A stretch of 35,437 bases of DNA. Origin: Clostridia bacterium. GTDB taxonomy: Bacteria; Bacillota; Clostridia; Oscillospirales; SIG627. The notes below the pieces were generated by a model that saw only the letters and a list, made by a program, of their open reading frames with translations, did not search any database and was not told the DNA's origin. Shown here one piece after another: positions 1,658 through 20,193 of this stretch. The position numbers and the translations under genes are program-made. Each line of letters opens with the position of its first letter. Position 1 is the first letter of the stretch. The stretch covers positions 1-35,437 of the forward strand of contig JAFYTG010000189.1 of the NCBI GenBank assembly GCA_017558945.1, written 5' to 3'.

Positions 1658-3406
1658 TTACTTTTTAACAACAAGGTTGACACCATCAGTCGTAACCAAC
1701 TCACAACCCTCGGCAACAACAATTCGTCCCTTGTTAATATCCGATTGCGTTACGTCGGTTGTACCGTTCTTAAGATACGTATCGTAGGTAATTCCCTCGT
1801 GAAGAACTATTGTGGTTGTCGTACCGCAATTATCGTGTACGTTGAACGCATACTCGCTATCGTTATAGCTTCCGCCGTAAACGTTTATCATTACGGTAGG
1901 ATTGTTAACGTAAACCGCGCTCTCATTTCTCTCGTATGCATTTGTAATATAATTACCCGAATAAATATTTACGGTAGAATTAGCCCAACCGTAAACGGGA
2001 ATGGACTTATTCTCTGCAATTATACTACCCTCGCCTATAATGTCAATATTACTGTACTGAATAAGAAGAACGGCATTTGCATAAGCCTTTCCGTTAACCA
2101 ACGCATCGGAGGATACGGTAATGTTGTGACCGTTGAGGTCAAGAATACCCTTTACTCCATAGAAGTGAAGAGGTGCGCCGTTACCGTCGGTATACATAAA
2201 TTTCGTAGTTGAATCTATGACGATATCGTCCTCAAGAACGATGATTACTTCCTCACGGTAGCTCTTATTACCCAGCTCACCGGGTATCTGTTGCTTTGCA
2301 GAGGTCTTTATTTCGTTCAAAGTGGTCTGCAATTCCTCAACGCTGCTTACCTTAATGATAGGATCGGTATAAACTACCTCAAAAGGACTGAAGGATGTGG
2401 TCTTAAAGGAAACAACGTTATTTGTGGGATTGTAGGTATAGTCTGTTATCGGGTCTCCATTATGAATAAGAGTGTTAATAAAAACGTTCTTGCCAAGATT
2501 AATATCTACGTCATACTCAACGCCCGACGGTGCCTTAACGCCATCCTTGAGAAGATCTATGTTGAGAGAATAAGTAGTTTTGCCGTCTGCGTCCTTTTCT
2601 TCCTGTTGACTGTCTACCTTAAGAGTATATTCCGCCTCGGAGGCATCAGAAGGCAACGTAACGGTAACGTTTCCCGCTTCAATGCTCTCTCCACCCTCAA
2701 TCGTTGAGGTTTCAACACTCGGCAGCATTGCTTCCTTATCATACTCCTTATCGAAGCTATCCTCCTCGAAGATGTACTGGGTAGCAAGGAGCTGAACCGA
2801 GAAGTCCGTGCCGATAGACTTATTCTGATAATCGTTTCCTGCAGACTCCTGCATTTTGAATGCTATTGTAGCGGTAACCTCACCAACCTCCTCGTCGGGA
2901 GCGGTAACGGTTGCACCTGCGGGAAGCAATATACCGTGTACTGCGCCGTCTGCCTCATTAATTATATCGCGAAGCGTTCCGACGGGAGTTGCGGCAGCGA
3001 GCATATCACGGGTAATTTGGGTAGCACCCTCAATGTAATAAACGTCGATTACGTCAGCAAGTATATCTACCGTTCCGTTGGGAACGATGTGAAGAGCGTA
3101 TCTGAACGCAAGTGTGCCCTCGTTTGCGATTTTAACGTGCTTCGCTTCAACGTAACCGGGCTCCCACAAATCATTGTTGAAGATAGCGCCGGTGGAAGCA
3201 TCGTTCCAGGTTGTGCTTGCAGGGTCCTCGTCACCCTCAAGCCAATACATGCCAACGTCAAGCGTACCCGACTTAATAATGTTGTTGGAGCTTGTTACGC
3301 TATCGGTAAACCACGCAAACGTAGTTCCCACAAACATCGTAAAGCAAAGAGCAAGAATGACGAGAGCGGAAATCAACGATTTCAAGGTTGAATGTTTTTT
3401 AGCCAT
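1658..3406 (-). CDS. SipW-type signal peptide (TasA/CalY-like) surface protein with beta-helix tail
   Basis: The 582-residue protein starts at 3406 behind AGGAGG. The hydrophobic signal at residues 8-32 ends in 'GTTFAWFTDSVTS', the hallmark of SipW-processed proteins such as TasA and CalY. Residues about 45-230 form a TasA-like beta-sandwich ('SGTLDVGMYW', 'LWEPGYVEAKHVKIANEGTLAFRY', 'FSVQLLATQ'). A middle domain at about 235-350 ends 'TTSFSPFEVVY'. Residues about 400-560 contain short, regular turns of the right-handed beta-helix kind ('ILDLNGHNIT', 'STVNIYSGNYI', 'VMINVYGGSYN'). A role as extracellular fibre or adhesin is inferred. No SipW peptidase gene is in the window. Its closest relative here is the protein at 18027-19976, which shares the first two domains but not the tail. 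Confidence 0.8.
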   Translation of the reverse strand: MAKKHSTLKSLISALVILALCFTMFVGTTFAWFTDSVTSSNNIIKSGTLDVGMYWLEGDEDPASTTWNDASTGAIFNNDLWEPGYVEAKHVKIANEGTLAFRYALHIVPNGTVDILADVIDVYYIEGATQITRDMLAAATPVGTLRDIINEADGAVHGILLPAGATVTAPDEEVGEVTATIAFKMQESAGNDYQNKSIGTDFSVQLLATQYIFEEDSFDKEYDKEAMLPSVETSTIEGGESIEAGNVTVTLPSDASEAEYTLKVDSQQEEKDADGKTTYSLNIDLLKDGVKAPSGVEYDVDINLGKNVFINTLIHNGDPITDYTYNPTNNVVSFKTTSFSPFEVVYTDPIIKVSSVEELQTTLNEIKTSAKQQIPGELGNKSYREEVIIVLEDDIVIDSTTKFMYTDGNGAPLHFYGVKGILDLNGHNITVSSDALVNGKAYANAVLLIQYSNIDIIGEGSIIAENKSIPVYGWANSTVNIYSGNYITNAYERNESAVYVNNPTVMINVYGGSYNDSEYAFNVHDNCGTTTTIVLHEGITYDTYLKNGTTDVTQSDINKGRIVVAEGCELVTTDGVNLVVKK

Positions 3407-5559: not shown

Positions 5560-6435
5560 TTATTTGTTGGAAATATAAATACCGCCTGCAATAAAGAGGA
5601 AGGATAAAATATACTGCCACTGAAAAATATTTTCGTTTAACAGCATTGCGCCGAAAATACATGCAAATGCAGGCTCGGCAAACTTGATGATAAAAAGCCT
5701 CGACAGCTCTCCGCTTTTAACCACCGTAAACCAGATGCAATAGCTTACGACCGACGCTATGCAGATATAGACGAACAGAAGTGAGGACAAAGATGCCGTA
5801 ACCGTCATCGAGCCTCCCATTGCTCTTCCGATTATTGCAAGCACGATTCCACCGAAAAGCTGGGATATTCCCGTTGCGGTAATCGGCTTTACCGTAACAA
5901 ATACCTTTTTGCTTATAATACTTGAAAAGACACTGCAGAACGATGCGATGATTATAAGCAGGTCACCGATATTGAAGCTTACGCCGTCAACGTTTAAATT
6001 GATGACGATAATTCCCGCAAAGCCGAGAAGCGCACCTATAAGCTTCTTAACGCTCAGCTTATCGTCCTTGAAAAAGAGGGAGGAAAAGCAAACGTAGAAA
6101 AGCACGCCGACCTGCTTGAGAATTGCGGTCTTTGAGCTGTCGGTCAGCTGAAGCGCCGAATAGGTGCAGGCGTAATGCAGAATGATAGAAAACAGTCCTG
6201 CAAGCAATATGGGAAGGATTGAGCTTTTAGCAGGCTTGAAGGACGCCTTGTCGGTGATGAGTGAAAAAAGACATATCACCCCTCCGCAAACGACGAATCG
6301 CATACCTGCAAAAAAGAGTATATCACCCGTCGTGCTTATATCAAACGCAGAATAGCTGAGCTTGACCGTCGGAAACAGCGTGCCCCATAAAAGCATTACG
6401 AAAAGGGACAATATAAGCGCTTTACTCTTTTGCAA
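5560..6435 (-). CDS. EamA/DMT-family metabolite exporter or importer
   Basis: The start is uncertain. The first ATG (6504) lies deep inside the upstream gene, so I prefer the TTG at 6435, preceded by AAGGTGG and overlapping the upstream stop by 14 bases; this gives 291 residues. The protein has about ten hydrophobic segments in two repeated halves, with the EamA start 'LLWGTLFPTVK' and the second-half entry 'SSIISKKVF...TATGISQLFGG'. These drug/metabolite transporters move small organic solutes across the inner membrane. As the last gene of the dehydroquinase-like operon it probably handles that pathway's substrate or product. A stretch of LRR coding sequence follows its stop in the same frame. 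Confidence 0.8.
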   Translation of the reverse strand: MQKSKALILSLFVMLLWGTLFPTVKLSYSAFDISTTGDILFFAGMRFVVCGGVICLFSLITDKASFKPAKSSILPILLAGLFSIILHYACTYSALQLTDSSKTAILKQVGVLFYVCFSSLFFKDDKLSVKKLIGALLGFAGIIVINLNVDGVSFNIGDLLIIIASFCSVFSSIISKKVFVTVKPITATGISQLFGGIVLAIIGRAMGGSMTVTASLSSLLFVYICIASVVSYCIWFTVVKSGELSRLFIIKFAEPAFACIFGAMLLNENIFQWQYILSFLFIAGGIYISNK

Positions 6436-7402
6436 TCTTAAGTACCACCTTACCGATATTTTCTCCGCGGTAAAGAATTGCGTGAGCCTCCTCCGCCTCT
6501 TCAATGGGAAGCACCTTATATATCGAGGGCTTCATCTCACCGCTCTCAAGCTTGCACCACACGTTATTTACAAGCTCGGAAAGGAGCCACGCCTTGAACT
6601 CGGGAGTACGTTTTCTGAGCATACTTCCCACAAGATGAAGTCCCTTTGTGAGAAGGGGGCGAAGCTGAACGGTGGTTTCAATTCCCGCCAAGGTGGAAAT
6701 TACCACCCAATAGCCGCCCTCCGCCATATACGGAAGGCTCTTGCCGAGGGTCTCACCCGAAAGACAGTCCATAGAAACGCTGACGGGAGTACCTCTCTCC
6801 TCCTCCGCCTTGAGAACCTCCTCAACGCACTGAGTTGTGGAATTAATAATAACGTCCGCACCGAGAGGCTTTATCTTTTCGGCAATCTCATCCGAAAGCA
6901 CCGAGGTAATGACCCTTGCGCCGAAAGCCTTTGCCATAGGAATTGCAACGCTTGCAAGACCCGATGCGCCTGCAGGGATGAAGGCGGTCTGACCTGCCTC
7001 AAGGTGTCCCTCGATAAACAAATTAAGATAGCTTGTAGCGTATGCCTCGGGAAGTGAGGATGCCTCCTCCATAGTAATCCCACGGGGGACGGGCATAAGC
7101 ATATCGTGTTTTACGGCAACGTACTCGGCGTAGCCTCCGCCTCCGAGCAAAGCGCACACCTTGTCACCGAGCTTCCAATTGCTAACGCTCTTTCCTAACT
7201 CAACGATTTCTCCCGAAATCTCAAGTCCCATCCACTCAGGACAGCCCTTGGGAGAGGGATATTTTCCTTCTCTCTGCAAGAGGTCGGCACGGTTAAGCGC
7301 CGCTGCATAAATTTTAACGAGCACCTCGTCGTCCTTTATGACGGGGGCGGGAACGTCACTCCATACGAGATTTCTGTTTTCATCAACGAGCATTGCCTTC
7401 AT
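6422..7402 (-). CDS. Quinone oxidoreductase-like MDR protein (PIG3/QOR type)
   Basis: The 326-residue protein belongs to the medium-chain dehydrogenase/reductase superfamily. The GroES-like N-terminal half carries 'AAALNRADLLQREGKYP' and 'GLEISGEIVELG', typical of the zinc-free PIG3/quinone reductase branch. The Rossmann half has the nucleotide motif 'AGASGLASVAIPMAKAFG' at about residues 143-160. No structural or catalytic zinc cysteine cluster is visible. It would use NADPH to reduce a quinone or conjugated enone. It sits one base after the SDR gene's stop and overlaps the EamA gene. Reduction of an enone produced by the dehydratase-like first gene of the operon is an attractive but unproven role. 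Confidence 0.85.
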   Translation of the reverse strand: MKAMLVDENRNLVWSDVPAPVIKDDEVLVKIYAAALNRADLLQREGKYPSPKGCPEWMGLEISGEIVELGKSVSNWKLGDKVCALLGGGGYAEYVAVKHDMLMPVPRGITMEEASSLPEAYATSYLNLFIEGHLEAGQTAFIPAGASGLASVAIPMAKAFGARVITSVLSDEIAEKIKPLGADVIINSTTQCVEEVLKAEEERGTPVSVSMDCLSGETLGKSLPYMAEGGYWVVISTLAGIETTVQLRPLLTKGLHLVGSMLRKRTPEFKAWLLSELVNNVWCKLESGEMKPSIYKVLPIEEAEEAHAILYRGENIGKVVLKIAKE

Positions 7403-7403
7403 A

Positions 7404-8177
7404 TCAGTCTGATCCTTTCATAGAAAGGGCTCTGCCTCCGTCAATAACGTAGGTCTGACCCGTGATCATTCTTGCCTTGTCGGAGGCAAGATACTCTACC
7501 ATATACGCGATATCCTCTGCAGTGCACTTTTCGCCGAGAAAATTCGTTTCGTAGGCGTAATGATGTCCGTCGGGAGTCGTAGTGTCAACCTCGGGACGAC
7601 AAACAACACCGGGTGCTATCGCATTGACGGTTATCTTATGAGGACCGAGCTCCTTGGCAAGAGCCTTTGTAAAAGACATTATACCGCCCTTTGAAGCGGC
7701 ATAGTCAACCGCTCCGGCAAGTCCGTTAATACCGACGGTTGAAGCAAAGTTTATGATTCGTCCACCCTCGCCCTGCTTAATCATTACGCGAGCTGCAGCT
7801 CGGCTTGCGTAGAATGCTCCGTAAAGATTGACCTTAAGAACCTGATCGATGACCTCGTCCTCCTGGTCAACGAGATGCGCATACTTACCGGGACCCGCAA
7901 GTCTTGCACTACCGCCTGCAACGTGTACCATAATATCAAGTCTGCCAAAGTTCTTGACGGTGGTGTCAACAGCCTCGTTAACCTCAGCGGAATTGGATAC
8001 GTCATAAACGAGCCCGATTGCATCGCCTCCGTTTTCACGAATAACGTTGACCACTCGGTCAACTGTCTCGCGGTTTATATCACCTACCGCAACGGCAATA
8101 CCTGCCTTTGCAAGAGTAATTGCGGTGGCACCTCCGATAAATCCGCCGCCACCCGTAATAAATGCTACCTTTTTCAT
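7404..8177 (-). CDS. Short-chain dehydrogenase/reductase
   Basis: This 257-residue classical SDR has the cofactor motif 'TGGGGFIGG' at residues 8-16, an acidic residue after strand 2 ('VGDINRE') suggesting NAD preference, and the catalytic Ser, Tyr and Lys in 'INFASTVG' and 'DYAASKGG'. The usual NAG motif is replaced by 'HVAGG'. The C-terminus 'GQTYVIDGG' is canonical. It would oxidise or reduce a hydroxyl on a small carbohydrate or cyclitol. It lies between the Gfo/Idh and the MDR genes in the same operon (20-base and 1-base gaps). FabG-like sequences look similar, but there is no fatty-acid context here. Confidence 0.88.
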   Translation of the reverse strand: MKKVAFITGGGGFIGGATAITLAKAGIAVAVGDINRETVDRVVNVIRENGGDAIGLVYDVSNSAEVNEAVDTTVKNFGRLDIMVHVAGGSARLAGPGKYAHLVDQEDEVIDQVLKVNLYGAFYASRAAARVMIKQGEGGRIINFASTVGINGLAGAVDYAASKGGIMSFTKALAKELGPHKITVNAIAPGVVCRPEVDTTTPDGHHYAYETNFLGEKCTAEDIAYMVEYLASDKARMITGQTYVIDGGRALSMKGSD

Positions 8178-8197
8178 TATAAGCTACTCCTTTATTG

Positions 8198-9190
8198 TTA
8201 AATTTTCTCACCTGTTGCCTGCATTAAGGTTTTCTGCACGGCAAGGTCGTGAGCATAAAGCTTTTCATCAATTTTAATACCTGTCACGAGGTCGTAAAAC
8301 TCACGCATCATATCGTTATAGCGATTTCGTGCAGGCATATCGGGAATATCTATTCTCCGTCTTATATTCTTATAAGCGTTATCCGCAAAGTCAATGCTTG
8401 AAAAATACATTTCAACGTCAAGCTCAAGAGGCTTGATCTCAACCGTGCCACGACTACCCATTACCGCCATTCGTCTCATTCCCCAGCCGTTTACCTCGAC
8501 CGAAAGATTCGTAATTTTCGCAATCGCCTTATCGTATTCAAGAACCGCAAAGCAGTTGTCATCGGTATGCACGCCCTTAAAATCTGTCTGCTTGATAAAG
8601 GAATGCACCTTATTCGGCTCACCGAGTATAAGATGTGCAAGGTCGATAAGATGGCTTCCGAATATATACATACTACCGCCCTTGAAGTGCTTGAGCCATT
8701 CACGGTATTCCGCAGAATGATAGGTGCTCATTTCAAGGTCAACCTGATATATCTCACCAAGCTCACCTGCCCGAATCATCTCAAGTGTTCTCTTGATTGC
8801 GGGATTTTGTCGGTACATATAGCCCATATGCACGATGAGATTTTTCTCTTTTGCCGTTTCTATAAGATGGGTAAACTCCTCAAGCGTACCGCTTGCGGGC
8901 TTGTCAATGTGCACGTGCTTACCTGCATCAACGCACCGTTGTGCCCATTTTGTCAAATTCCAGACGTCACACTCAACGCAGACGGCATCACATTTTTCAA
9001 GAAGCTCGTCCACCTCAAGTCTCTGCACACCGTCGTAACATTCAAGTCCGCCACGCTTTTTCACCCATTCCTCATCGGGCTCGGCATATCCGACTATCTC
9101 AAAGCAATCGGAATTGTTCTTTAACCCAAGCATATGTCCATCGGCGTGATTGTGACCTATGCCGAGCTGACCTATCTTTATTTTTTTCAT
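8198..9190 (-). CDS. Gfo/Idh/MocA-family oxidoreductase (dehydroquinase-like operon)
   Basis: The 330-residue protein has an N-terminal Rossmann fold ('IGQLGIGHNHADGH'), the family motif 'HIDKPASGT' (the EKP-type lysine loop) near residue 97, 'HMGYMYRQNPAIKR' near 121, and the C-terminal alpha/beta domain with 'GGSMYIFGSHLIDL'. Such enzymes oxidise or reduce sugars, inositols and related rings with bound NAD(P). Its ATG overlaps the stop of the dehydroquinase-like gene in an ATGA arrangement, implying coupled translation. The shared operon suggests that it makes the keto substrate needed by the Schiff-base enzyme. Confidence 0.85.
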   Translation of the reverse strand: MKKIKIGQLGIGHNHADGHMLGLKNNSDCFEIVGYAEPDEEWVKKRGGLECYDGVQRLEVDELLEKCDAVCVECDVWNLTKWAQRCVDAGKHVHIDKPASGTLEEFTHLIETAKEKNLIVHMGYMYRQNPAIKRTLEMIRAGELGEIYQVDLEMSTYHSAEYREWLKHFKGGSMYIFGSHLIDLAHLILGEPNKVHSFIKQTDFKGVHTDDNCFAVLEYDKAIAKITNLSVEVNGWGMRRMAVMGSRGTVEIKPLELDVEMYFSSIDFADNAYKNIRRRIDIPDMPARNRYNDMMREFYDLVTGIKIDEKLYAHDLAVQKTLMQATGEKI

Positions 9191-10011
9191 ATCATTCCGC
9201 CGACCTTTTTCATGCCGTCGATAATCTGACGGGTGGTCTGAAGGTCAAGCTGACCCAAGGTGCTGTTTGAGTCGTAAGAGTCAACGCAGAATATCATATG
9301 ACCGCCGAGTATGGGGTTGATAATCCTCGAAAGGTCTCCCTTCGCTCCTCCGACGTGGAAGGAAACTGCGGTCTTGACCTCTTTTTTAAGTGTTGTCATA
9401 GTTTTGAAGGCTTCGATAAGGTCCTCGTCGGTCTCGGCAAGAGACACAAGCTTTATGACGTCGGGATTTCTCTTTTCAAGAAAAAGAGCAAGGTCCACTA
9501 TCTGCTCACAATTCATAACCTTACCCGGATGGCAGGATAAAAGCACCTCAGCACCGTGACCGTGTACCCACTCGATAAGCTCGCACTGCTTGTCGATTAT
9601 TGCGGAATCGGTTACGACCTCAAAGGGCTTGACCGAGGCAAAGGAATGTCCTTCGTCCCCGAGATATTGAGCCTTTGACTCAGCGTGAAAGGTGTAGCCC
9701 TGCATATCAATACCTGCCGCACCCGCCTCAATCGCACGCTTGAAATAAGCCACTCTGTCCTCCTCGTTGAGATTCAGAGGCTCCCAGCTTGAGCCCATAT
9801 TATAATTGAGCGCAAGAACGGGCAAGGGCGTTGAGTCAACTATTCTTTTAAGTGTATCAACGTCGGATTTATCAAGGCAGGACATATGCAAATCTATCAT
9901 ATCCGCGCCGTGATAAAAGCAATTCTTAATTTCGGCAATTGCCGCTCTTTCGTTTGCTTCTCTTACAACGCCTGCAAGCGCAGGAGTTCTGACAGTAGTA
10001 ATTTTTTTCAT
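9187..10011 (-). CDS. Divergent type I 3-dehydroquinate dehydratase-like Schiff-base enzyme
   Basis: The 274-residue protein follows the type I dehydroquinase (AroD) barrel from end to end. Lys187 in 'DVIKLVSLAETDEDL' matches the Schiff-base lysine, His161 in 'LLSCHPGK' the catalytic histidine, Arg229 in 'GDLSRI' and Gln254 in 'TLGQL' the late active-site residues. The segment 'ALNYNMGSS' takes the place of the conserved F-T-x-R-x-x-x-E-G-G, and 'DLHMS' the place of E-x-R-x-D, so two arginines and a glutamate that hold dehydroquinate seem to be missing. I infer a related Schiff-base dehydratase or isomerase with another substrate. It is the first gene of a five-gene operon with its own promoter, away from any shikimate genes. 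Confidence 0.7.
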   Translation of the reverse strand: MKKITTVRTPALAGVVREANERAAIAEIKNCFYHGADMIDLHMSCLDKSDVDTLKRIVDSTPLPVLALNYNMGSSWEPLNLNEEDRVAYFKRAIEAGAAGIDMQGYTFHAESKAQYLGDEGHSFASVKPFEVVTDSAIIDKQCELIEWVHGHGAEVLLSCHPGKVMNCEQIVDLALFLEKRNPDVIKLVSLAETDEDLIEAFKTMTTLKKEVKTAVSFHVGGAKGDLSRIINPILGGHMIFCVDSYDSNSTLGQLDLQTTRQIIDGMKKVGGMI

Positions 10012-10028: not shown

Positions 10029-10057
10029 ATTATGCATTACAATGTATAATTTGTAAA
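10029..10057 (-). promoter_or_regulatory. Promoter of the dehydroquinase-like operon
   Basis: Minus-strand TTTACA (10052-10057), 17-base spacer, CATAAT (10029-10034). It faces away from the AraC promoter about 40 bases off. The intervening sequence holds short inverted ATCA/TGAT elements (around 10059-10089) where the regulator could bind. Confidence 0.55.
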
Positions 10058-10097: not shown

Positions 10098-10126
10098 TTG
10101 ACTATTTCTAATTTTAGAGTTATTAT
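10098..10126 (+). promoter_or_regulatory. Promoter of the first AraC-type regulator
   Basis: TTGACT (10098-10103), 17-base spacer, TATTAT (10121-10126). Its position shows that the regulator starts at 10158 rather than at the earlier ATG at 10098, which lies within the -35 region. Confidence 0.65.
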
Positions 10127-10157
10127 TAACTTGCAATATCAAATGTTGAGGTGTTTT

Positions 10158-10913
10158 ATGAGTCAAAGCGTTTTATCAAATCTGATTATCAAGCGCGTGC
10201 TTTCGACTACAAAGCTTTTTACCGCCGAGGGAGTACATTGCAAAAAGGGAAAAAGACCGGGATGGGCGCTCGTTTTAAAGTATGAGGGAGAAACCGTATA
10301 CAAGCAAAACGGCAAGGAAATCGTTTCCGACTCGTCAAGCCTCATCATTCTTCCGAAGGGATGCATTTACGAATGGACATGCACAAAATCGGGACATTTT
10401 ATTATAACCGAGTTTGAGAGTGACCTCGAGTGTGAAAGCATTATATGCTTTCCCGTCAAAAGCTCGGACAAGTATCTCCAGCAGCTTCAAAGACTTGAAT
10501 ACATTATGACGCTAAACACACCTACCGTTCAGCTTGAGGCAATACGCGACGTTTATTCCGTAATACTTTCGTTGACTCAGCGCTCAAAGTCGTATCAACC
10601 AACCGACAAGCTTTCAAGAATAACACCTGCGCTTGAGTATATTGCCAAGCATTACGACACACAGATAACAAACGATGAGCTTGCAGAGCTGACGGGGCTT
10701 TCCTGCGTATACTTTCGCAAGCTTTTCAGCGAGGTTATGGGCGAATCCCCCATTGCCTACGCACACGGTCTGCGCATAAAAAAGGCTTGTGAGATGCTGA
10801 AAAGTGACTTCGGCAGTATTGCCGACGTAGCTCACACTCTCGGATATTCCAACATCTACGATTTTTCAAGGGATTTTAAAAAGCACACCGGAAAACCGCC
10901 GTCCAAATATTAA
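10158..10913 (+). CDS. AraC-family transcriptional regulator (dehydroquinase-like operon)
   Basis: The 251-residue protein starts at the ATG at 10158 behind GAGGTG. Its N-terminal half is a cupin-like sensing domain ('GWALVLKYEGETVYKQNGKE' and 'IILPKGCIYEW'), and residues about 150-250 contain the two helix-turn-helix motifs of AraC/XylS proteins ('LAELTGLSCVYFRKLFSEVM' and 'DVAHTLGYSNIYDFSRDFK', ending in the usual G-K-P-P-S-K-Y). It is transcribed divergently from the five-gene operon ending at 10011, the standard arrangement for a ligand-dependent activator of that operon. The ligand is unknown and presumably the pathway substrate. Confidence 0.85.
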   Translation: MSQSVLSNLIIKRVLSTTKLFTAEGVHCKKGKRPGWALVLKYEGETVYKQNGKEIVSDSSSLIILPKGCIYEWTCTKSGHFIITEFESDLECESIICFPVKSSDKYLQQLQRLEYIMTLNTPTVQLEAIRDVYSVILSLTQRSKSYQPTDKLSRITPALEYIAKHYDTQITNDELAELTGLSCVYFRKLFSEVMGESPIAYAHGLRIKKACEMLKSDFGSIADVAHTLGYSNIYDFSRDFKKHTGKPPSKY

Positions 10914-10919
10914 ATGAAG

Positions 10920-10945
10920 AAAGCCGTCTCTTGCGAGACGGCTTT
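10920..10945. terminator. Bidirectional terminator between araC and nagA
   Basis: A perfect 11-bp stem (AAAGCCGTCTC / GAGACGGCTTT) around TTGC lies between two converging genes that stop at 10913 and 10958, so it can end both transcripts. Confidence 0.85.
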
Positions 10946-10957
10946 CAATCATAATTC

Positions 10958-12136
10958 TTAATTTTTATACACAGTTTTTCCGCCGACAATCGTCATTTTC
11001 ACGTTGATATCGCTGTCGAAAAGCACAAGGTCGGCACGAAGTCCTCTTTCAAGGCTACCCGTTTTATCGTCGATGCCGATAAGCCTCGCAGGGTTTATAG
11101 TCATCATCTGTATAGCCTCAACGATGGGCACGCCTACCGTCTTGTACATAGTACGGACGAGTCTGTCTGCGGTACAAACGCTGCCTGCAAACGCAGTGCG
11201 GTCGGGAAGCTTTGCAACACCGCCCTCGATTATACAGTGCAGACCTGTTTCGCGATTTCCAAGCACCGTGTCACCGTCGGGCATTCCCGCACCTCTCATA
11301 GAGTCTGTGACGAGTGCGATGCGGTCAGCTCCCTTGAGCTTATAAATCATCAAAAGAAGCTCACGGGGAAGATGGTGACCGTCGGCAATAACCTCGACGT
11401 TCATTCCGTCAATGAGGTAACCGCTCTCGATAACTCCGAGTCTGCGATAACCGTCAACACGGGTAATGGTGGACATTCCGCTGTAAAAGTGAGTCATAAG
11501 CTCAACGCCGTTATTATAAGCCCTTTCAACGTCGGCATACACGGCGTTGGAATGACCAATGGAGGCAATAATTCCCTGCTTCTTGAGATATGCGGCAAAC
11601 TCATCCGCACCCTCAAGCTCGGGAGCAAGCGTCCAACGGATTATAGCACCGTTTGACTTTTCCACAATATATTCATAATCCTCGGGAGTGGGCTTGCGGA
11701 TATATCTCGGGTCCTGCGCACCTGCCTGCTCGGGAGAAAGGTAAGGACCCTCCATATGAATACCGACAAGTCTTGCACCGAGATGCTCGGAGTCACGCGC
11801 CTCGGCAAAGCATTCAAACGCCTTTACAACGTCCTCAACGGGACCCGTTGTAATGGTAGGCACAAGAGTGGTAGTACCGTGCTTTGCGTGAAGCTCGGCA
11901 GGAATTATATAGGACTCGACACCGCCGTCGTTGAAGTCGGCATCTCCGCCTCCGTGACAGTGTATGTCAACAAATCCCGCCGACAAAAATCTTCCCTCGG
12001 CATCAATGAGATTGCCCTCAAGCTTGGGAGTGCCCTCTCCGACACCGATTATAATTCCGTTTTCATAAGCAACGTAGCCGTTCTCTATAACTCTGTCGGA
12101 TATAATAACTCTCGCGTTATAAATAATCGTTTTCAT
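10958..12136 (-). CDS. nagA: N-acetylglucosamine-6-phosphate deacetylase
   Basis: The 392-residue amidohydrolase converts N-acetylglucosamine-6-phosphate to glucosamine-6-phosphate and acetate in the cytoplasm. The metal motif HxH is at residues 59-61 ('VDIHCHGGG'), the metal-binding glutamate in 'GIHMEGPYLSPEQAGAQDP', further histidines in 'SIGHSNA' and 'MTHFYSGMS', and the catalytic aspartate in 'LVTDSMRGAG'. The family's 'THLFNAM' segment is altered to 'THFYSGM'. Length is normal. It follows the hydrolase gene by one base and closes a four-gene operon with nagB, so deacetylation and deamination are co-produced. Confidence 0.93.
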   Translation of the reverse strand: MKTIIYNARVIISDRVIENGYVAYENGIIIGVGEGTPKLEGNLIDAEGRFLSAGFVDIHCHGGGDADFNDGGVESYIIPAELHAKHGTTTLVPTITTGPVEDVVKAFECFAEARDSEHLGARLVGIHMEGPYLSPEQAGAQDPRYIRKPTPEDYEYIVEKSNGAIIRWTLAPELEGADEFAAYLKKQGIIASIGHSNAVYADVERAYNNGVELMTHFYSGMSTITRVDGYRRLGVIESGYLIDGMNVEVIADGHHLPRELLLMIYKLKGADRIALVTDSMRGAGMPDGDTVLGNRETGLHCIIEGGVAKLPDRTAFAGSVCTADRLVRTMYKTVGVPIVEAIQMMTINPARLIGIDDKTGSLERGLRADLVLFDSDINVKMTIVGGKTVYKN

Positions 12137-12137
12137 T

Positions 12138-14006
12138 TCAATCCCCTAAAAGTCGGGCAAGTCCCGTCATTGTCACCTGAACTATATCCTCCTCGGAATA
12201 GAGTCGGTCGGTGATAATATCCTCTGCCGTCACCTTATTGTGACATTGCACCTTGACATCGAAGCCCGTTTTTTCAAGTATATCGGCAAACACGCCGTAT
12301 ACACCTTCAGTATATAACAAAACGTCACTTGAGTCAAGTTCATTTTTTGTCATTTCAAGAGTTTTGATAAGATCATACGTCATAAGTGCGGGAAGACTGT
12401 CTCCAAGGAACAAAAGCTCCTTTGAAAGTCTGACGGTCGTGTTAAAGCGACCCGCATTATTCAGTATTTCACGCGGTGAGCATTTACCCATAGTCGAAAG
12501 ATCAACTACAAGCGCACGTCTGCCGCTTTTCAGAATATCCCATATTACAGACTTATGCTCGACAAGCTTATCCGTACCACCCGACCAGAGACAGACGGTC
12601 ACAGGCAGGGAGTTGGTATTTTCGGGAGAAAACAAAACGCCGTAAGAGGCAAGCTCACGCTGTCCAAACCACATAATACGCTGAATTTCAGTTCCCTCAA
12701 GCGAGTCCTTGAAAAGATAACGGACACGTGGCTCAACCTCCTCACGCTCAAAATATATTTTCTCACGGAGAAGCTCTGCAGAGTCCTTCAAGGGCTTTCT
12801 TTTTTTATACTCGGCAAGGTTTTCCTCATACACGGTGGTATACTCGGGATATGCCGAATAAATGCTTCCGTCGGGAGAGGTATAAAGAGGTGACGGGTCG
12901 TCAAAAACCTTCACGTCGGGCTTGGCGCAAGCCTTCCTTCCGTCAAGTACCTCTGCAAAAAACTCTGCCGCACTGCAAGCAAGATTTTTCGTATAGGCGT
13001 GCTTGGAATCATCCCACGCAATGCGAAGGTTATCCTCACAGCCAAAGAGTCTGTAAAATTCTCTTCCCTTTTCAAAAACCCTTGCGGTACCCTCGGGGCA
13101 GAAGAAGTCACTCTTAACCCCCAAAATGAGATAGGGCTTCGGGCAAAAGGCGGAAATAAGCTCAAAATGGTCGAAATTATTTTTCGTAATTCCTTCCCAT
13201 ACCTGCTCTGCATCCTGCGTGCTGCCTGCGGAGAAATAGTCACGTCGGGTGGTAATAAACGTACCCGGTGCGGTTGCCTTTATTCTGTCGTCCAGAATAG
13301 ATATGACAGAGGTCATAGTACCGCCTCCCGAGTTGCCCGTAGCACCGATACGCTCACCGTCAAGCTCGGGACGGGACTCGATATAGTCAATGGCGCGCAT
13401 TGCATCCGAAATGAAATATTTCAGCACGTTGGTATCGTTCAGAATACACTGTCTTCCTACCCTCTCGTGCTCGTAGCAGGGAGACTCACGCATCATAGGT
13501 ATCTCGGAATAGCCCTGACGCTCGCCCTGACCTATATGGTCAATGGCAAGCACGGCAAAACCCGTTTTGGCAATAATTCTGCACACCGCCTGATACTGTG
13601 CATGAAATCTGCCCGAGGAGGCGTGTCCTCCTTGAAAAAGAATTGTCGGAAGCTTGCCGTCAGCATTCTCGGGCATATAGAGAGTCGCGGGAACGAAAAC
13701 GTTTTTCCTCGACTGAAAAACGATATTTTCAATACTCAAGCCATCGTCGGTAAAGCTTTTTACCACACGGGAGTTGAGCGGAAGAGACTTATCGTAGGGT
13801 ATTTTGCCCACGCTCTTTTTAAAGGTGTTTATTGCGCGACGGCGGTATTTTTCAAATTGCTCAAGGGTTTTAACTCGGTCACGGAGCTTATCTGCGCGGT
13901 CAAACGCCTTGTCACTGCGTCTTAAAATATGTAGAAAAAGCTTATCGTCAATGGCGTAAAAATCGTCCGTCGGCGTATATTTTTCTATTTTTTCAAGAAT
14001 GCTCAT
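12138..14006 (-). CDS. Alpha/beta-hydrolase (acetyl xylan esterase-like), two-part protein
   Basis: The 622-residue protein carries a helical lead-in (1-80), an alpha/beta-hydrolase core (about 85-345) and a further region of about 270 residues that I cannot assign. In the core the nucleophile elbow is 'GNSGGG' with Ser226, and likely partners are Asp300 ('VKSDFFCPEG') and His336 ('DSKHAYT'). The oxyanion segment is 'FQGGHASSGR'. This resembles AXE1/dienelactone hydrolase-type esterases, which remove acetyl or other acyl groups from sugars. It overlaps nagB by 4 bases (ATGA) and precedes nagA by one base, so it probably acts on an acylated amino sugar. No signal peptide is visible, so it acts in the cytoplasm. 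Confidence 0.75.
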   Translation of the reverse strand: MSILEKIEKYTPTDDFYAIDDKLFLHILRRSDKAFDRADKLRDRVKTLEQFEKYRRRAINTFKKSVGKIPYDKSLPLNSRVVKSFTDDGLSIENIVFQSRKNVFVPATLYMPENADGKLPTILFQGGHASSGRFHAQYQAVCRIIAKTGFAVLAIDHIGQGERQGYSEIPMMRESPCYEHERVGRQCILNDTNVLKYFISDAMRAIDYIESRPELDGERIGATGNSGGGTMTSVISILDDRIKATAPGTFITTRRDYFSAGSTQDAEQVWEGITKNNFDHFELISAFCPKPYLILGVKSDFFCPEGTARVFEKGREFYRLFGCEDNLRIAWDDSKHAYTKNLACSAAEFFAEVLDGRKACAKPDVKVFDDPSPLYTSPDGSIYSAYPEYTTVYEENLAEYKKRKPLKDSAELLREKIYFEREEVEPRVRYLFKDSLEGTEIQRIMWFGQRELASYGVLFSPENTNSLPVTVCLWSGGTDKLVEHKSVIWDILKSGRRALVVDLSTMGKCSPREILNNAGRFNTTVRLSKELLFLGDSLPALMTYDLIKTLEMTKNELDSSDVLLYTEGVYGVFADILEKTGFDVKVQCHNKVTAEDIITDRLYSEEDIVQVTMTGLARLLGD

Positions 14007-14737
14007 ATGCTTAAAATCTCACTCGCACTGTTCTCATCAATATAAAGAATGAAGTCGCGATGCTCCTTGAGGAGAGTTGCGGGAACGAGATTCGTTGTCT
14101 CCTTTGCCGAGAGGGTGTTTTTGATTGCCTCTGCCTTTACCTTATGAGGTACGCAGGATACTATCCTCTTACAAAGCATTATTTGATAAGCGGTCATAGA
14201 TACAGCCTGCTTGGGCACGTCGTCAATGGTTGCAAACCATCCCTCACCCATCTGCTGTTTTTTGCAACGCTCATTAAGGTCAACCACGATATACGCCTCT
14301 TTGGTGTCAAAGTTTGCAGGCGGGTCATTGAATGCAATATGTCCGTTTTCACCGATACCGATAAGACCGATATCAATGGGTGCACGGCGTATCTCCTCGG
14401 TAAGCTTTGCAATTCCTTCAACCGTACCGTCAACGAAATGAGCTGCCTTAAGCGTTCCGACCTTCTCAACGAATCTCTCCTTGAGATACTTGCGGAAGCT
14501 TGCAACGTGCGTTTCGGGAAGGTCAACGTACTCGTCGAGATGGAACATCTCAACGCATTCCCACTTAATATCAGGCTCTTCAACGAGCGCCTTAAGTGTA
14601 TCAAACTGTGATGCACCCGTAGAAAGAGCGATTCTTGCCTCGCCCTTTTCCGCTATAACCTCACGAAGCACCTGAGCCACCTGCTTTGCGGCGCTTTTTC
14701 CAAGCTCTTTACTGTTTTTACAAATTCTGATTTCCAT
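14003..14737 (-). CDS. nagB: Glucosamine-6-phosphate deaminase
   Basis: The 244-residue protein converts glucosamine-6-phosphate to fructose-6-phosphate and ammonia. Visible family motifs are the phosphate loop 'LSTGASQFDTLKAL' (residues about 38-51), 'MFHLDEYVDLP' with the catalytic aspartate, and 'IGIGENGHIAFNDPP' with the ring-opening histidine region. It starts at 14737 behind AAAGGAG and overlaps the esterase gene by 4 bases. Its length fits the shorter Gram-positive NagB forms. With nagA it makes a complete route from GlcNAc-6-P to glycolysis; no kinase or phosphotransferase gene is present nearby. Confidence 0.95.
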   Translation of the reverse strand: MEIRICKNSKELGKSAAKQVAQVLREVIAEKGEARIALSTGASQFDTLKALVEEPDIKWECVEMFHLDEYVDLPETHVASFRKYLKERFVEKVGTLKAAHFVDGTVEGIAKLTEEIRRAPIDIGLIGIGENGHIAFNDPPANFDTKEAYIVVDLNERCKKQQMGEGWFATIDDVPKQAVSMTAYQIMLCKRIVSCVPHKVKAEAIKNTLSAKETTNLVPATLLKEHRDFILYIDENSASEILSI

Positions 14738-14749
14738 ATTTCTTCTCCT

Positions 14750-15979
14750 TTATTTATAGTATTCGTTCAAATTTACTTGTCTGTTTTCAGCCATTGATAT
14801 ATTTGCCGCCGCTCCTATGCCGATAGACATCATACCTGCACGAAGGTCTGCCATCTGTCCAAGAGGATCGTCGGTATAGCCACGGAAAAGGTTATTTCGC
14901 AGAAGCGTATCGCTGCCTCCGTGCCCCTCGGCACTTCCCTCGGGAAGCTTATAGGTAATCTCCTCACCCGTTCTGTCATAAATTTTCATCATAGGTCTTG
15001 AAGCCTTATCGGAATAATCACCGACGTTGCCCGACCAGAACTTTGAAAGCTCAAGTCTGCCAAGCGTTCCGTTTATAACGAGATTTGCCCCCTCAAACGG
15101 TGAATGTGTGGTAAGAGAATAGCTCATAACCGCACCCTTTTTATACTTTACGCTGACTGATACGCTGTCCTCAATATCAATATCGGGAGAGAATACGCAA
15201 CGGTCACGCCAATATCCGTCCGCATCCTCGCAATCAAAATATATACGGCGTATATCCTTGTGCTTTTCTATATCAAAATAGAACTTACACTCCTTGGCAT
15301 AAGGGCAGGTGTGACACCTCTCGCCTCTCTTTTCGGTCACGGGACCGTAAAAGCGACGTGTACCGAAGGCGTTGACAGCCTCGGGCTCATCGTCAAGATA
15401 CCAGTTTGCAAGGTCGAAATGGTGGGTGGATTTATGTATCAGGAGAGATCCTGAATTACGTCTTTCACGGTGCCAACGACGGAAATAATCCGCACCGTGC
15501 TCGGTATCCAGCATCCACTGATAATGCACGCTTAAAACGTCACCGAGAACACCCGTATTTATAACCTCCTTAACCCTTCTGAAAACGGGATGGAAACGGA
15601 GATTGAAGGTTACAGTCACACGCTTGCCCGTTTCCTCCTCCGCCTTTTTTATGGCAAGAGCCTTTTCAAAGGTGGTGGTCAAGGGCTTTTCGGAAATGAC
15701 TTCGCATCCTGCGTAAAGTGATTTTATTGTGTACTCGTCGTGAAAGGCGTCTACCGTTGTAACGATTACCGTATCGGGCGCAACCTCCTCAAGCATTTTT
15801 TCAAAGCTGTCGAAAACGGGTATGCTTTTCCCGACGTACTCGCTGACAAGCTCGGCTCTTTTTCTGTTTACGTCGTAAACACCGCAAAGCTCTGCACAGT
15901 CACCGTACTCCTTTACCATTGGAACGGCATAAGACATTATACCTCTGTATCCGCAGCCTACTATAACGTATTTTTTCAT
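14750..15979 (-). CDS. Gfo/Idh/MocA-family oxidoreductase (nag operon)
   Basis: The 409-residue protein has an N-terminal Rossmann motif ('VGCGYRGIMSYAVP'), the lysine loop 'ISEKPLTTT' near residue 97 and the C-terminal substrate domain with 'LIHKSTHHFDLANWYL'. A cysteine cluster at about residues 225-236 ('RCHTCPYAKEC', with later cysteines in 'DCEDADGYWRDRC') occurs in one branch of the family and may bind metal. It is the first gene of the operon with nagB, the esterase and nagA. It could oxidise an N-acetyl sugar or, as in glycosidase families built on this fold (for example GH109), cleave a glycoside through a transient keto intermediate. The operon context favours an amino-sugar substrate. 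Confidence 0.82.
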   Translation of the reverse strand: MKKYVIVGCGYRGIMSYAVPMVKEYGDCAELCGVYDVNRKRAELVSEYVGKSIPVFDSFEKMLEEVAPDTVIVTTVDAFHDEYTIKSLYAGCEVISEKPLTTTFEKALAIKKAEEETGKRVTVTFNLRFHPVFRRVKEVINTGVLGDVLSVHYQWMLDTEHGADYFRRWHRERRNSGSLLIHKSTHHFDLANWYLDDEPEAVNAFGTRRFYGPVTEKRGERCHTCPYAKECKFYFDIEKHKDIRRIYFDCEDADGYWRDRCVFSPDIDIEDSVSVSVKYKKGAVMSYSLTTHSPFEGANLVINGTLGRLELSKFWSGNVGDYSDKASRPMMKIYDRTGEEITYKLPEGSAEGHGGSDTLLRNNLFRGYTDDPLGQMADLRAGMMSIGIGAAANISMAENRQVNLNEYYK

Positions 15980-18026: not shown

Positions 18027-19976
18027 TTAATTCATCCAATCCCAATCGTCAGCTTCCATTACAACGTTCTTGCAAAAACTATCGTTAACTGTTACGTTCT
18101 GTGTGCCGTTATTGCAAGTCAAATTATTATAATACAACGCACAGGGAGCTGCATAAGCAGTAGTATCGGATTTAAAGTTACCAATCAAGGTACAATTCTC
18201 AACATACATATAAGCACCGCGATTATCGGATTTTCCATTAACGTAGAAGGGATAATTGCCATCGTTAACAATAAGATCGTAGCACTTAACCTTTGACAAG
18301 CGAATTGACTGTACCGATGCATTGTCGGCAGAAAGCTTCATGCCCAACTTATTTTTATAGTAGTTGTTTGCAGTTCCATCTAAATACAGATTTCTAATTG
18401 TAACTTGAATATGTTCGCTTAGTGTAACTGCACCACCGCAGTTAAAGAGGTGTCGATTAGTCGCGCTAGTCTTATCAGTAGTGCCACTCACCTTTATAAC
18501 CTTAATGTCCTCAGCATTACCAAGTCCAACAATATCAACACTAAAGCCAATATCTATCGTGGTAGCCTCATTATATGTACCGGGCATTATATATACCGTA
18601 TTAAAAGACACGCCCTTAAGAATTTCATACTGATAGCTTCCGCTTGCAGTAAACACCCTCCAAAGATTTCCGCCGGAAGCATTTACTGCGTAAACATCAT
18701 CGCCGTGATTTGCCTTAAGAGTAGCAACAGCTTCATCGGTTGAAACGGCAATAACAGTTTCCGCCTTCTTGCTTACCGCATAGCAGGTCTTACCGTCCTT
18801 TACGTAATCAACGACAATACAATCGTCTGCAACGTACTCGAAGGGATTGAAGTCGCCCGTTTCAAAGAGACCGTAAACGATTGCATTTTCGCCAATCTTA
18901 CCGTTGACGGAAAGCTCGCCGTAGGTAACCTCAAAGGGACTGAAGGAGGAGGTATTGAACTTTATAATACCCGTAACGGGATTATAGTCATAAACGGTAA
19001 TTTCGTTTCCGTTATGAGTAATCTTCTCAATATCAAGAAGCTGGTCAAGCTGAATTTCCACGGTATATTCAACGCCCGCCTGAGCAGCAACCTTTTCTCC
19101 GTCTCTTTCGAGGCTGATGTCGTAGCCAAGGCTGTCAAGACCGTTTGCGGTCTCACCTACGACCTTGTTATCTACTACTACGACGTAATTACCCGCTTCA
19201 CTTCCTGCGGGAACGGTAACGGATACGGAATCACCCTCATCGGTTTCCACGGTGATCTTCTTTTCGGCAATTCCGTCAGAGTATCCGCCTGCGGTTACGG
19301 GGAATTCCGCTTCCTCGTCATAGTACTTATCAAAGCTGTCCTCCTCAGAGGTAAACTGAGTTGCAAGAAGCTGTACGGTGAACTCGGTTCCGAAAGATCT
19401 GTTCTGATACTCGTTGCCTGCGTCCTCCTGCATCTTAAGTGCAAGAGTTATGGTAACCTTTTCATTTTCCTCAAGAACGCCGTTGCCCGATGCGTTGAGA
19501 CCTGCAAGGACCTCGGTGAGAGTTCCGAGCTTGTTGTCATCGCTGAAAGCGGTGCGCTCGTCAACCTTGATTGCAGGGTCAACGTAATATACGTCGATAA
19601 CGTCTGCAAGGCTTACACCGTCAGCGTAGGTTACGGTTCCGCTGGGAATAATGTTAAGCTCATACTTGAGCGCGAGAGTTCCCTCATTCTCAATCTTGAT
19701 ATGTCTTACTTGAGTAAAGCCGGGCTCCCAGAGCTCATAGCTGAATATTGCGCCCTTAGCCGCATCCTTCCAATCCGTATCTGCCGCAGCAGCAGGATCG
19801 ATACTCAAATCATCGATGTATTCAAGAGTTACATCAAGATTACCCGACTTAACAACGTTTCCCGTGCTGGTAACGCTGTCGGTAAACCACGCAAAAGTAG
19901 TACCGATAAGCATTGACGCACAGAGAAGAAGAGAAAGTGCGCTCATAATAAGCGAATTCTTTGTGCTTCTTTTCAT
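18027..19976 (-). CDS. Second SipW-type signal peptide (TasA/CalY-like) surface protein with beta-helix tail
   Basis: The 649-residue protein starts at the ATG at 19976 behind AAGGAG; the longer reading to 20111 would begin within the promoter. The signal at residues 8-33 ends 'GTTFAWFTDSVTS', as in the other copy. The TasA-like domain (about 40-235) shares 'LWEPGFTQVRHIKIENEGTLALKY' and 'FTVQLLATQFTSEEDSFDK', and the middle domain ends 'TSSFSPFEVTY'. The tail (about 430-649) differs: it contains 'VYIMPGTYNEATTIDIGF', the opening motif of pectate-lyase-like beta-helices, followed by regular strand-turn repeats. It would be secreted after SipW-type cleavage and could decorate or bind glycans. 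The two heads are clear paralogues placed about 15 kb apart. Confidence 0.8.
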   Translation of the reverse strand: MKRSTKNSLIMSALSLLLCASMLIGTTFAWFTDSVTSTGNVVKSGNLDVTLEYIDDLSIDPAAAADTDWKDAAKGAIFSYELWEPGFTQVRHIKIENEGTLALKYELNIIPSGTVTYADGVSLADVIDVYYVDPAIKVDERTAFSDDNKLGTLTEVLAGLNASGNGVLEENEKVTITLALKMQEDAGNEYQNRSFGTEFTVQLLATQFTSEEDSFDKYYDEEAEFPVTAGGYSDGIAEKKITVETDEGDSVSVTVPAGSEAGNYVVVVDNKVVGETANGLDSLGYDISLERDGEKVAAQAGVEYTVEIQLDQLLDIEKITHNGNEITVYDYNPVTGIIKFNTSSFSPFEVTYGELSVNGKIGENAIVYGLFETGDFNPFEYVADDCIVVDYVKDGKTCYAVSKKAETVIAVSTDEAVATLKANHGDDVYAVNASGGNLWRVFTASGSYQYEILKGVSFNTVYIMPGTYNEATTIDIGFSVDIVGLGNAEDIKVIKVSGTTDKTSATNRHLFNCGGAVTLSEHIQVTIRNLYLDGTANNYYKNKLGMKLSADNASVQSIRLSKVKCYDLIVNDGNYPFYVNGKSDNRGAYMYVENCTLIGNFKSDTTAYAAPCALYYNNLTCNNGTQNVTVNDSFCKNVVMEADDWDWMN

Positions 19977-20052
19977 TGTTTTTTCTCCTTGCTTAAAATT
20001 ATAATCAATAGCATAATACAGACAATCTGAAAATGCTCCTATCACATTTTCC

Positions 20053-20080
20053 ATTTTAATCAAAACCCTACAATTGTCAA
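20053..20080 (-). promoter_or_regulatory. Promoter of the second TasA-like gene
   Basis: Minus-strand TTGACA (20075-20080), 16-base spacer, TAAAAT (20053-20058). The spacing of 16 and the perfect -35 match the promoter of the other TasA-like gene, which hints at shared control. Confidence 0.65.
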
Positions 20081-20193
20081 GTACAATCAACAAATTGGCA
20101 GTTTTTTTCACGCAATCGGAGAAAAATCAGTAATAATTGAGTCCGTAATCGCTTAAGCAGACACTCTTCAAAAGCCATACGCAAGCTAATAAA

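Follow-up and report, generated by a model that had tools for sequence, protein, structure and literature searches.

A divergent type I dehydroquinase-fold protein in a catabolic operon of gut Clostridia, probably a Schiff-base dehydratase of a different cyclic keto-acid

A single reaction is ascribed to the whole family of type I dehydroquinases (PF01487), and the name 3-dehydroquinate dehydratase is readily given to its proteins. In a Clostridia bacterium of the order Oscillospirales (GCA_017558945.1, contig JAFYTG010000189.1; the whole stretch of 35,437 nucleotides analysed is referred to as the window), a gene of this family leads an operon of oxidoreductases behind a divergent regulator. 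What reaction does a dehydroquinase homologue catalyse in such a setting? The features on which the analysis rests are collected in Table 1.

The dehydroquinase-like (DHQ-like) gene is an intact open reading frame on the minus strand, and the plus-strand frame of the same stretch contains stops. Its 274-residue product matches the DHquinase_I profile at E 5.6e-18 (66.3 bits, cut-off 22.2), while on the NCBI AroD equivalog model TIGR01093 it scores 46.3 bits, under the cut-off of 139.3. The AlphaFold2 model, for which a 33-sequence alignment served as input, had a mean pLDDT of 91.2. Its top structural matches (Foldseek, VIA-align 2) were all AroD/DHQ1 structures (Z 25.0, rmsd 2.4, 232 residues), Salmonella AroD being the closest. 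The first unrelated fold, homocitrate synthase, followed at Z of about 17, so that the dehydroquinase fold lies far above every other fold among the structural matches listed. Both the profile match and the structural score exclude a chance resemblance; the protein is genuinely homologous to the type I dehydroquinases, in agreement with the preliminary description, which had assigned the fold and proposed structure prediction as a check.

Table 1. Features of the DHQ-like gene and its operon in the window (residue numbers of AroD are those of the E. coli enzyme).
Feature	Position	Strand	Basis
DHQ-like protein, clade A of PF01487, 274 aa	9187..10011	-	ORF, Pfam, AlphaFold, alignment, tree
K187 codon, Schiff-base lysine (K170 of AroD)	9451..9453	-	alignment, hhalign
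H161 codon, catalytic histidine (H143 of AroD)	9529..9531	-	alignment, hhalign
R229 codon, carboxylate-binding arginine kept (R213 of AroD)	9325..9327	-	alignment, PMC9902378
Q254 codon, kept (Q236 of AroD)	9250..9252	-	alignment, PMC9902378
D102 codon, kept (D114 of AroD)	9706..9708	-	alignment, PMC9902378
D40-L41-H42, in place of E46-x-R48 of AroD	9886..9894	-	alignment, hhalign, hmmsearch; D40/H42 invariant in clade A
N71 codon, in place of R82 of AroD	9799..9801	-	alignment, hhalign
27-residue insertion 104-130	9622..9702	-	alignment, hhalign
Gfo/Idh/MocA oxidoreductase, 4-base overlap with DHQ-like stop	8198..9190	-	ORF, Pfam
Short-chain dehydrogenase (SDR)	7404..8177	-	ORF, Pfam
PIG3-type quinone reductase-like MDR, constant partner of clade A	6422..7402	-	TIGR02824 above cut-off
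EamA-family transporter, true start probably downstream of mechanical TTG start	5560..6504	-	ORF, Pfam
Divergent AraC-family regulator, mechanical TTG start	10098..10913	+	ORF, Pfam
Sigma-70-like promoter match, upstream of DHQ-like gene	10029..10057	-	consensus match only
Terminator-like hairpin, 12 pairs, ends neighbouring NagA block (separate transcript)	10919..10946	-	

Family membership, fold and catalytic residues would also suit a divergent yet ordinary biosynthetic AroD. The genome of the window, however, carries a type II dehydroquinase, AroQ, as do 24 of the 28 other genomes with members of the two clades described below (clades A and B), and 12 of the 13 high-quality ones. Canonical AroD was detected in none of these 28, the best PF01487 score being 76 bits where canonical enzymes score at least 159. 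Since canonical AroD is absent and AroQ is present in 24 of 28, the clade A and B proteins are not the housekeeping dehydroquinase. AroQ was undetected in four genomes, three of them 72-77% complete. The fourth, G015 (98% complete), holds both a clade A and a clade B gene with neither AroQ nor canonical AroD detected, and speaks for a biosynthetic role. Against such a role stand also the patchy occurrence within the genus, the catabolic operon and the equivalog score of 46 bits against 139, and it is considered highly improbable. Profile searches found no shikimate genes beside the DHQ-like gene in the window operon; together with the loci of relatives they uphold the earlier view that a catabolic operon stands in their place.

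The active-site register was obtained from a 96-sequence MAFFT alignment and an hhalign comparison of clade A with canonical AroD, which were concordant; that of the E46/R48 strand was also confirmed by hmmsearch against Arabidopsis DHQ-SDH. The groups aligned were 38 clade A proteins (the window protein among them), 30 of clade B and 27 canonical AroD, E. coli included. The clade B residue counts (n=30) include L048, which the tree puts in clade A. K170, H143, D114, R213 and Q236 of E. coli AroD are retained in the window protein as K187, H161, D102, R229 and Q254, and all five are invariant in clade A (38/38). The first four are kept across clade A, clade B and the canonical enzymes, and Q236 as well, with one exception in clade B. 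E46, R48, D50, R82 and E86, invariant in 27/27 canonical enzymes, are D40, H42, S44, N71 and S75 in the window protein. Within clade A, D40 and H42 are invariant, S44 is present in 33/38 and N71 in 34/38, with no fixed residue at the E86 position. H219 (M203 in AroD) is likewise invariant, and residue 17 (R17 in the window protein, M23 in AroD) is R or K in 37/38. After the beta-4 aspartate lies the insertion, which is conserved in clade A and has Q104, Y106, T107 and F108 invariant. Retention of the Schiff-base residues and replacement of the E-x-R and F-T-x-R-x-x-x-E-G-G segments, both claimed in the preliminary description, are thus evident from the alignment. Its claim that the dehydroquinate-binding arginines were lost holds for R48 and R82 (now H42 and N71) but fails for R213, which is kept as R229.

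Loss of the substrate-binding E46, R48, R82 and E86 might indicate a catalytically dead or binding-only homologue, such as a sensor or pseudo-enzyme. The invariance of the Lys, His, Asp, Arg and Gln in all 38 clade A proteins, purifying selection on the gene (dN/dS 0.157) and its place in a set of enzymes argue against this. A pseudogene or dead enzyme was rejected on the invariant Lys/His pair and the dN/dS value, and the whole explanation is left with very little probability.

In crystal structures of DHQ1, R213 and Q236 hold the C1 carboxylate, whereas the C4 and C5 hydroxyls are held by E46, R48, R82 and D114 (PMC9902378). In the canonical reaction the C3 ketone is bound as a Schiff base, the C2 proton is removed and the C1 hydroxyl expelled, which gives an enone (PMC9902378). 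As read from the aligned residues, the carboxylate site of the DHQ-like protein is retained and the site for the C4/C5 diol is rebuilt. The retention of R229, Q254 and D102 confines the apparent change to the diol end of the pocket and suggests that a carboxylate may still be present on the substrate. With the carboxylate pair in place, ring ketones bearing a carboxylate would be better candidates than inososes and neutral keto sugars, which the preliminary description had put forward for assay. R17 or R86 may be candidate residues compensating for the lost positive charge.

The kept carboxylate pair, catalytic pair and D114 equivalent are also what would be expected of a catabolic 3-dehydroquinase with a variant pocket, acting on 3-dehydroquinate from dietary quinate while the operon reduces the resulting enone. 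That product could be reduced by a PIG3-type reductase, and the GDSL esterase genes present in a few operons of relatives could free quinate from esters. However, the C4/C5 diol residues, invariant in the 27 canonical enzymes, are replaced and the replacements are invariant too; the branch leading to the clade is long; and profile searches of the window operon found no shikimate or quinate dehydrogenase-type gene. This explanation is regarded as unlikely.

In a maximum-likelihood tree, with bootstrap not fully settled, canonical AroD and clades A+B were split with support 100/100 by a branch of 1.85 changes per site, and within A+B the two clades parted with support 97/99 and 97/91. By the tree, clade A comprises 38 rows plus L048 (38-39 members), clade B 29 rows and the canonical group 27. 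Clade B keeps R82 in 25/30 proteins and usually has G-x-Q for E46-x-R48; its E86 loop is absent and its insertion is shorter than that of clade A. Members of A or B were found in 30 of 295 genomes sampled from the window's order, and a sample of 398 genomes of the phylum gave only 2 carriers of a clear member outside that order. A search of genome contigs showed members also in Lachnospiraceae and Eisenbergiella MAGs. Many named sources of carriers are hindgut samples of goat, sheep, deer and cattle. Occurrence in 3 of the 6 genomes sampled from the window's genus is as expected of an accessory catabolic trait.

A second PF01487 paralogue in the window's own genome (C162:3818-4597, L035) belongs to clade B and adjoins a divergent AraC gene; downstream of it lie genes for an NmrA/epimerase-like protein, a PIG3-type MDR and a WbsX/GH99-like protein. 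This paralogue and another at L005:825-1619 share with clade A an ancestry apart from AroD (100/100) and the partner families SDR, MDR, Gfo, PIG3 and AraC. Yet another divergent member of PF01487 is encoded at L124:1450-2187, in a genome that holds canonical AroD as well; in the alignment it lacks conservation at the catalytic His, Lys and Arg positions.

In the window the order is divergent AraC, DHQ-like, Gfo/Idh/MocA, SDR, PIG3-type MDR and EamA. These neighbours had been named correctly from the sequence, as profile searches confirmed. In relatives, where gene calls are mechanical ORFs, the set begins with AraC and DHQ-like, followed by some of the families SDR, Tdh/IolM-like MDR, Gfo, EF_0837-like amidohydrolase, NmrA/epimerase-like, PIG3 and EamA. 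Counted in loci with at least 5.5 kb of downstream sequence (25 of clade A, 15 of clade B), PIG3 accompanies clade A in 24/25, Gfo in 18/25, MDR and amidohydrolase in 16/25 each, SDR in 15/25 and EamA in 13/25. The separate clade tied to Gfo/Idh genes that the preliminary description had thought worth looking for is therefore found, both in the fully supported branch and in the Gfo count. At clade B loci SDR (13/15) and PIG3 (11/15) recur; no amidohydrolase match was found in the 15, and some clade B loci have a metallo-beta-lactamase-fold hydrolase in place of the amidohydrolase, a hydrolase also present in some loci without a DHQ-like gene. At L005 a B operon and an A operon stand in tandem. 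Genome-wide, a close PIG3 homologue was present in 28/30 A/B genomes and in 5/265 others (Fisher p 8e-32, ignoring shared ancestry).

Some MDR-Gfo-PIG3 operons lack a DHQ-like gene, and these are at times found in A/B genomes. The DHQ step may therefore be a side branch and not the core; DHQ and PIG3 can occur as separate modules, seemingly within a single metabolic network. Gfo and PIG3 occur together without a DHQ-like gene, mostly beside AraC, at L128, L130, L132, L136, L137 and L140; all of these carry an MDR gene except L136. L130 has in addition the metallo-beta-lactamase-fold hydrolase and a GH36 gene nearby, and another GH36 gene is present in L135. Upstream of two clade A operons, a PFL-family glycyl-radical enzyme is encoded with a radical SAM protein beside it (L021:3852-6875, L023:628-2754).

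Taken together, the protein is probably a type I dehydroquinase-fold enzyme that has been repurposed to dehydrate a different cyclic keto-acid by beta-elimination through a Schiff base, its step following an oxidation and preceding the reduction of an enone. The oxidation, of a ring hydroxyl to a ketone, would be the work of the operon's SDR or of its MDR and Gfo/Idh pair. K187 would then form a Schiff base with the ring ketone and H161 would relay protons. Elimination of a substituent in the beta position to the carbonyl (water, possibly alkoxy) would yield an enone. PIG3-family proteins carry the name of quinone reductases; here the PIG3-type partner would reduce the enone, and further dehydrogenases with a metal-dependent hydrolase (the amidohydrolase in clade A) would complete the breakdown. 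With R229 and Q254 kept, the substrate probably has a carboxylate near the leaving group; its difference from 3-dehydroquinate would lie at the C4/C5 end. There a new wall is probably formed by D40, H42, N71, H219 and the 104-130 insertion.

A Schiff-base lysine with a histidine would also suit the enamine chemistry of an isomerase, epimerase or retro-aldolase acting on a keto sugar with no elimination step, and in two operons (L024, L032) genes for KduI/IolB isomerases place keto-sugar chemistry nearby. Set against this, the elimination-relevant residues are conserved in full, and the constant partner is a protein of enone-reductase type. The conserved elimination residues, along with partners for oxidation and enone reduction, favour a sequence of oxidation, elimination, reduction and hydrolysis, and there is only a small chance that the enzyme is of the isomerase, epimerase or retro-aldolase kind.

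In inositol catabolism (IolG, IolM, IolE, IolD, IolB) the ring is likewise oxidised, dehydrated and hydrolysed. The operons described here resemble it in this logic, in their Gfo and MDR genes and in the KduI/IolB relatives of two operons. They differ in that the DHQ fold takes the place of IolE and in scoring far under cut-off on the NCBIfam Iol models (48.8 bits against 355 for the window Gfo on the iolG equivalog); in the window operon, profile searches found no gene of the IolE or IolD families. No function outside shikimate and quinate metabolism is known to us in PF01487. A literature search that covered few subscription journals returned no described non-shikimate PF01487 enzyme and no clade A or B operon. 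Oxidation of a ring hydroxyl followed by beta-elimination is known from the 3-keto-glycoside beta-eliminases AtOGE and PuCGE, which act with Gfo/Idh oxidoreductases, and from RgNanOx. The former lyases use Mn2+ (PMC10628242) and in RgNanOx the elimination is done inside the Gfo enzyme (PMC7535918), whereas for the DHQ-like protein a Lys Schiff base is predicted.

Two sister clades combine the catalytic core with a re-tooled pocket in a recurrent catabolic gene set, in about one-tenth of the sampled genomes of one gut order. Confirmation would give a classic Schiff-base enzyme family a second reaction, expose a systematic misannotation and define a pathway by its partner genes and divergent regulator. 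More tentatively, the protein could represent the Schiff-base beta-eliminase branch of a new anaerobic oxidise-eliminate-reduce pathway for carboxylated ring compounds in Clostridia of the herbivore gut, acting on a sugar acid, ulosonic acid or cyclitol acid, perhaps as a glycoside. If true, PF01487 would gain the first such function known to us, and the Mn2+-dependent keto-glycoside lyases a counterpart that works through lysine.

Glycosidase genes of many families adjoin some A/B operons and suggest sugar-acid or glycoside sources; the KduI/IolB isomerases point to uronate- or inositol-like intermediates. A substrate could not be read from the glycosidases, since GH106-like, GH2-like, GH88-like, GH20, GH36, GH95 and WbsX/GH99-like genes each occurred only once or twice. 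Sialic or another ulosonic acid, with its geminal carboxylate and leaving group and a 4-ketone, is chemically attractive (cf. RgNanOx, PMC7535918); it was set aside, the residues being its only support.

Next to the operon, a separate minus-strand block (window 10958-15979) encodes NagA, a 622-residue AXE1-like esterase, a NagB-like protein scoring under deaminase cut-offs and a second Gfo/Idh protein. A link to these genes was dropped, as the terminator-like hairpin and the divergent AraC gene lie between and, of the loci compared, none but that of the nearest relative (L004/L089) has this block. Between window 6422-10011 and L004 8001-11588, PIG3 is 98% identical (dS 0.13), the DHQ-like protein 85% (dS 0.59) and SDR 88% (dS 0.83), an unevenness suggesting recombination or replacement inside the operon. 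Elsewhere, window positions 1658-3406 and 18027-20111 encode large proteins of 582 and 694 residues that are related to each other and match camelysin (M73) weakly.
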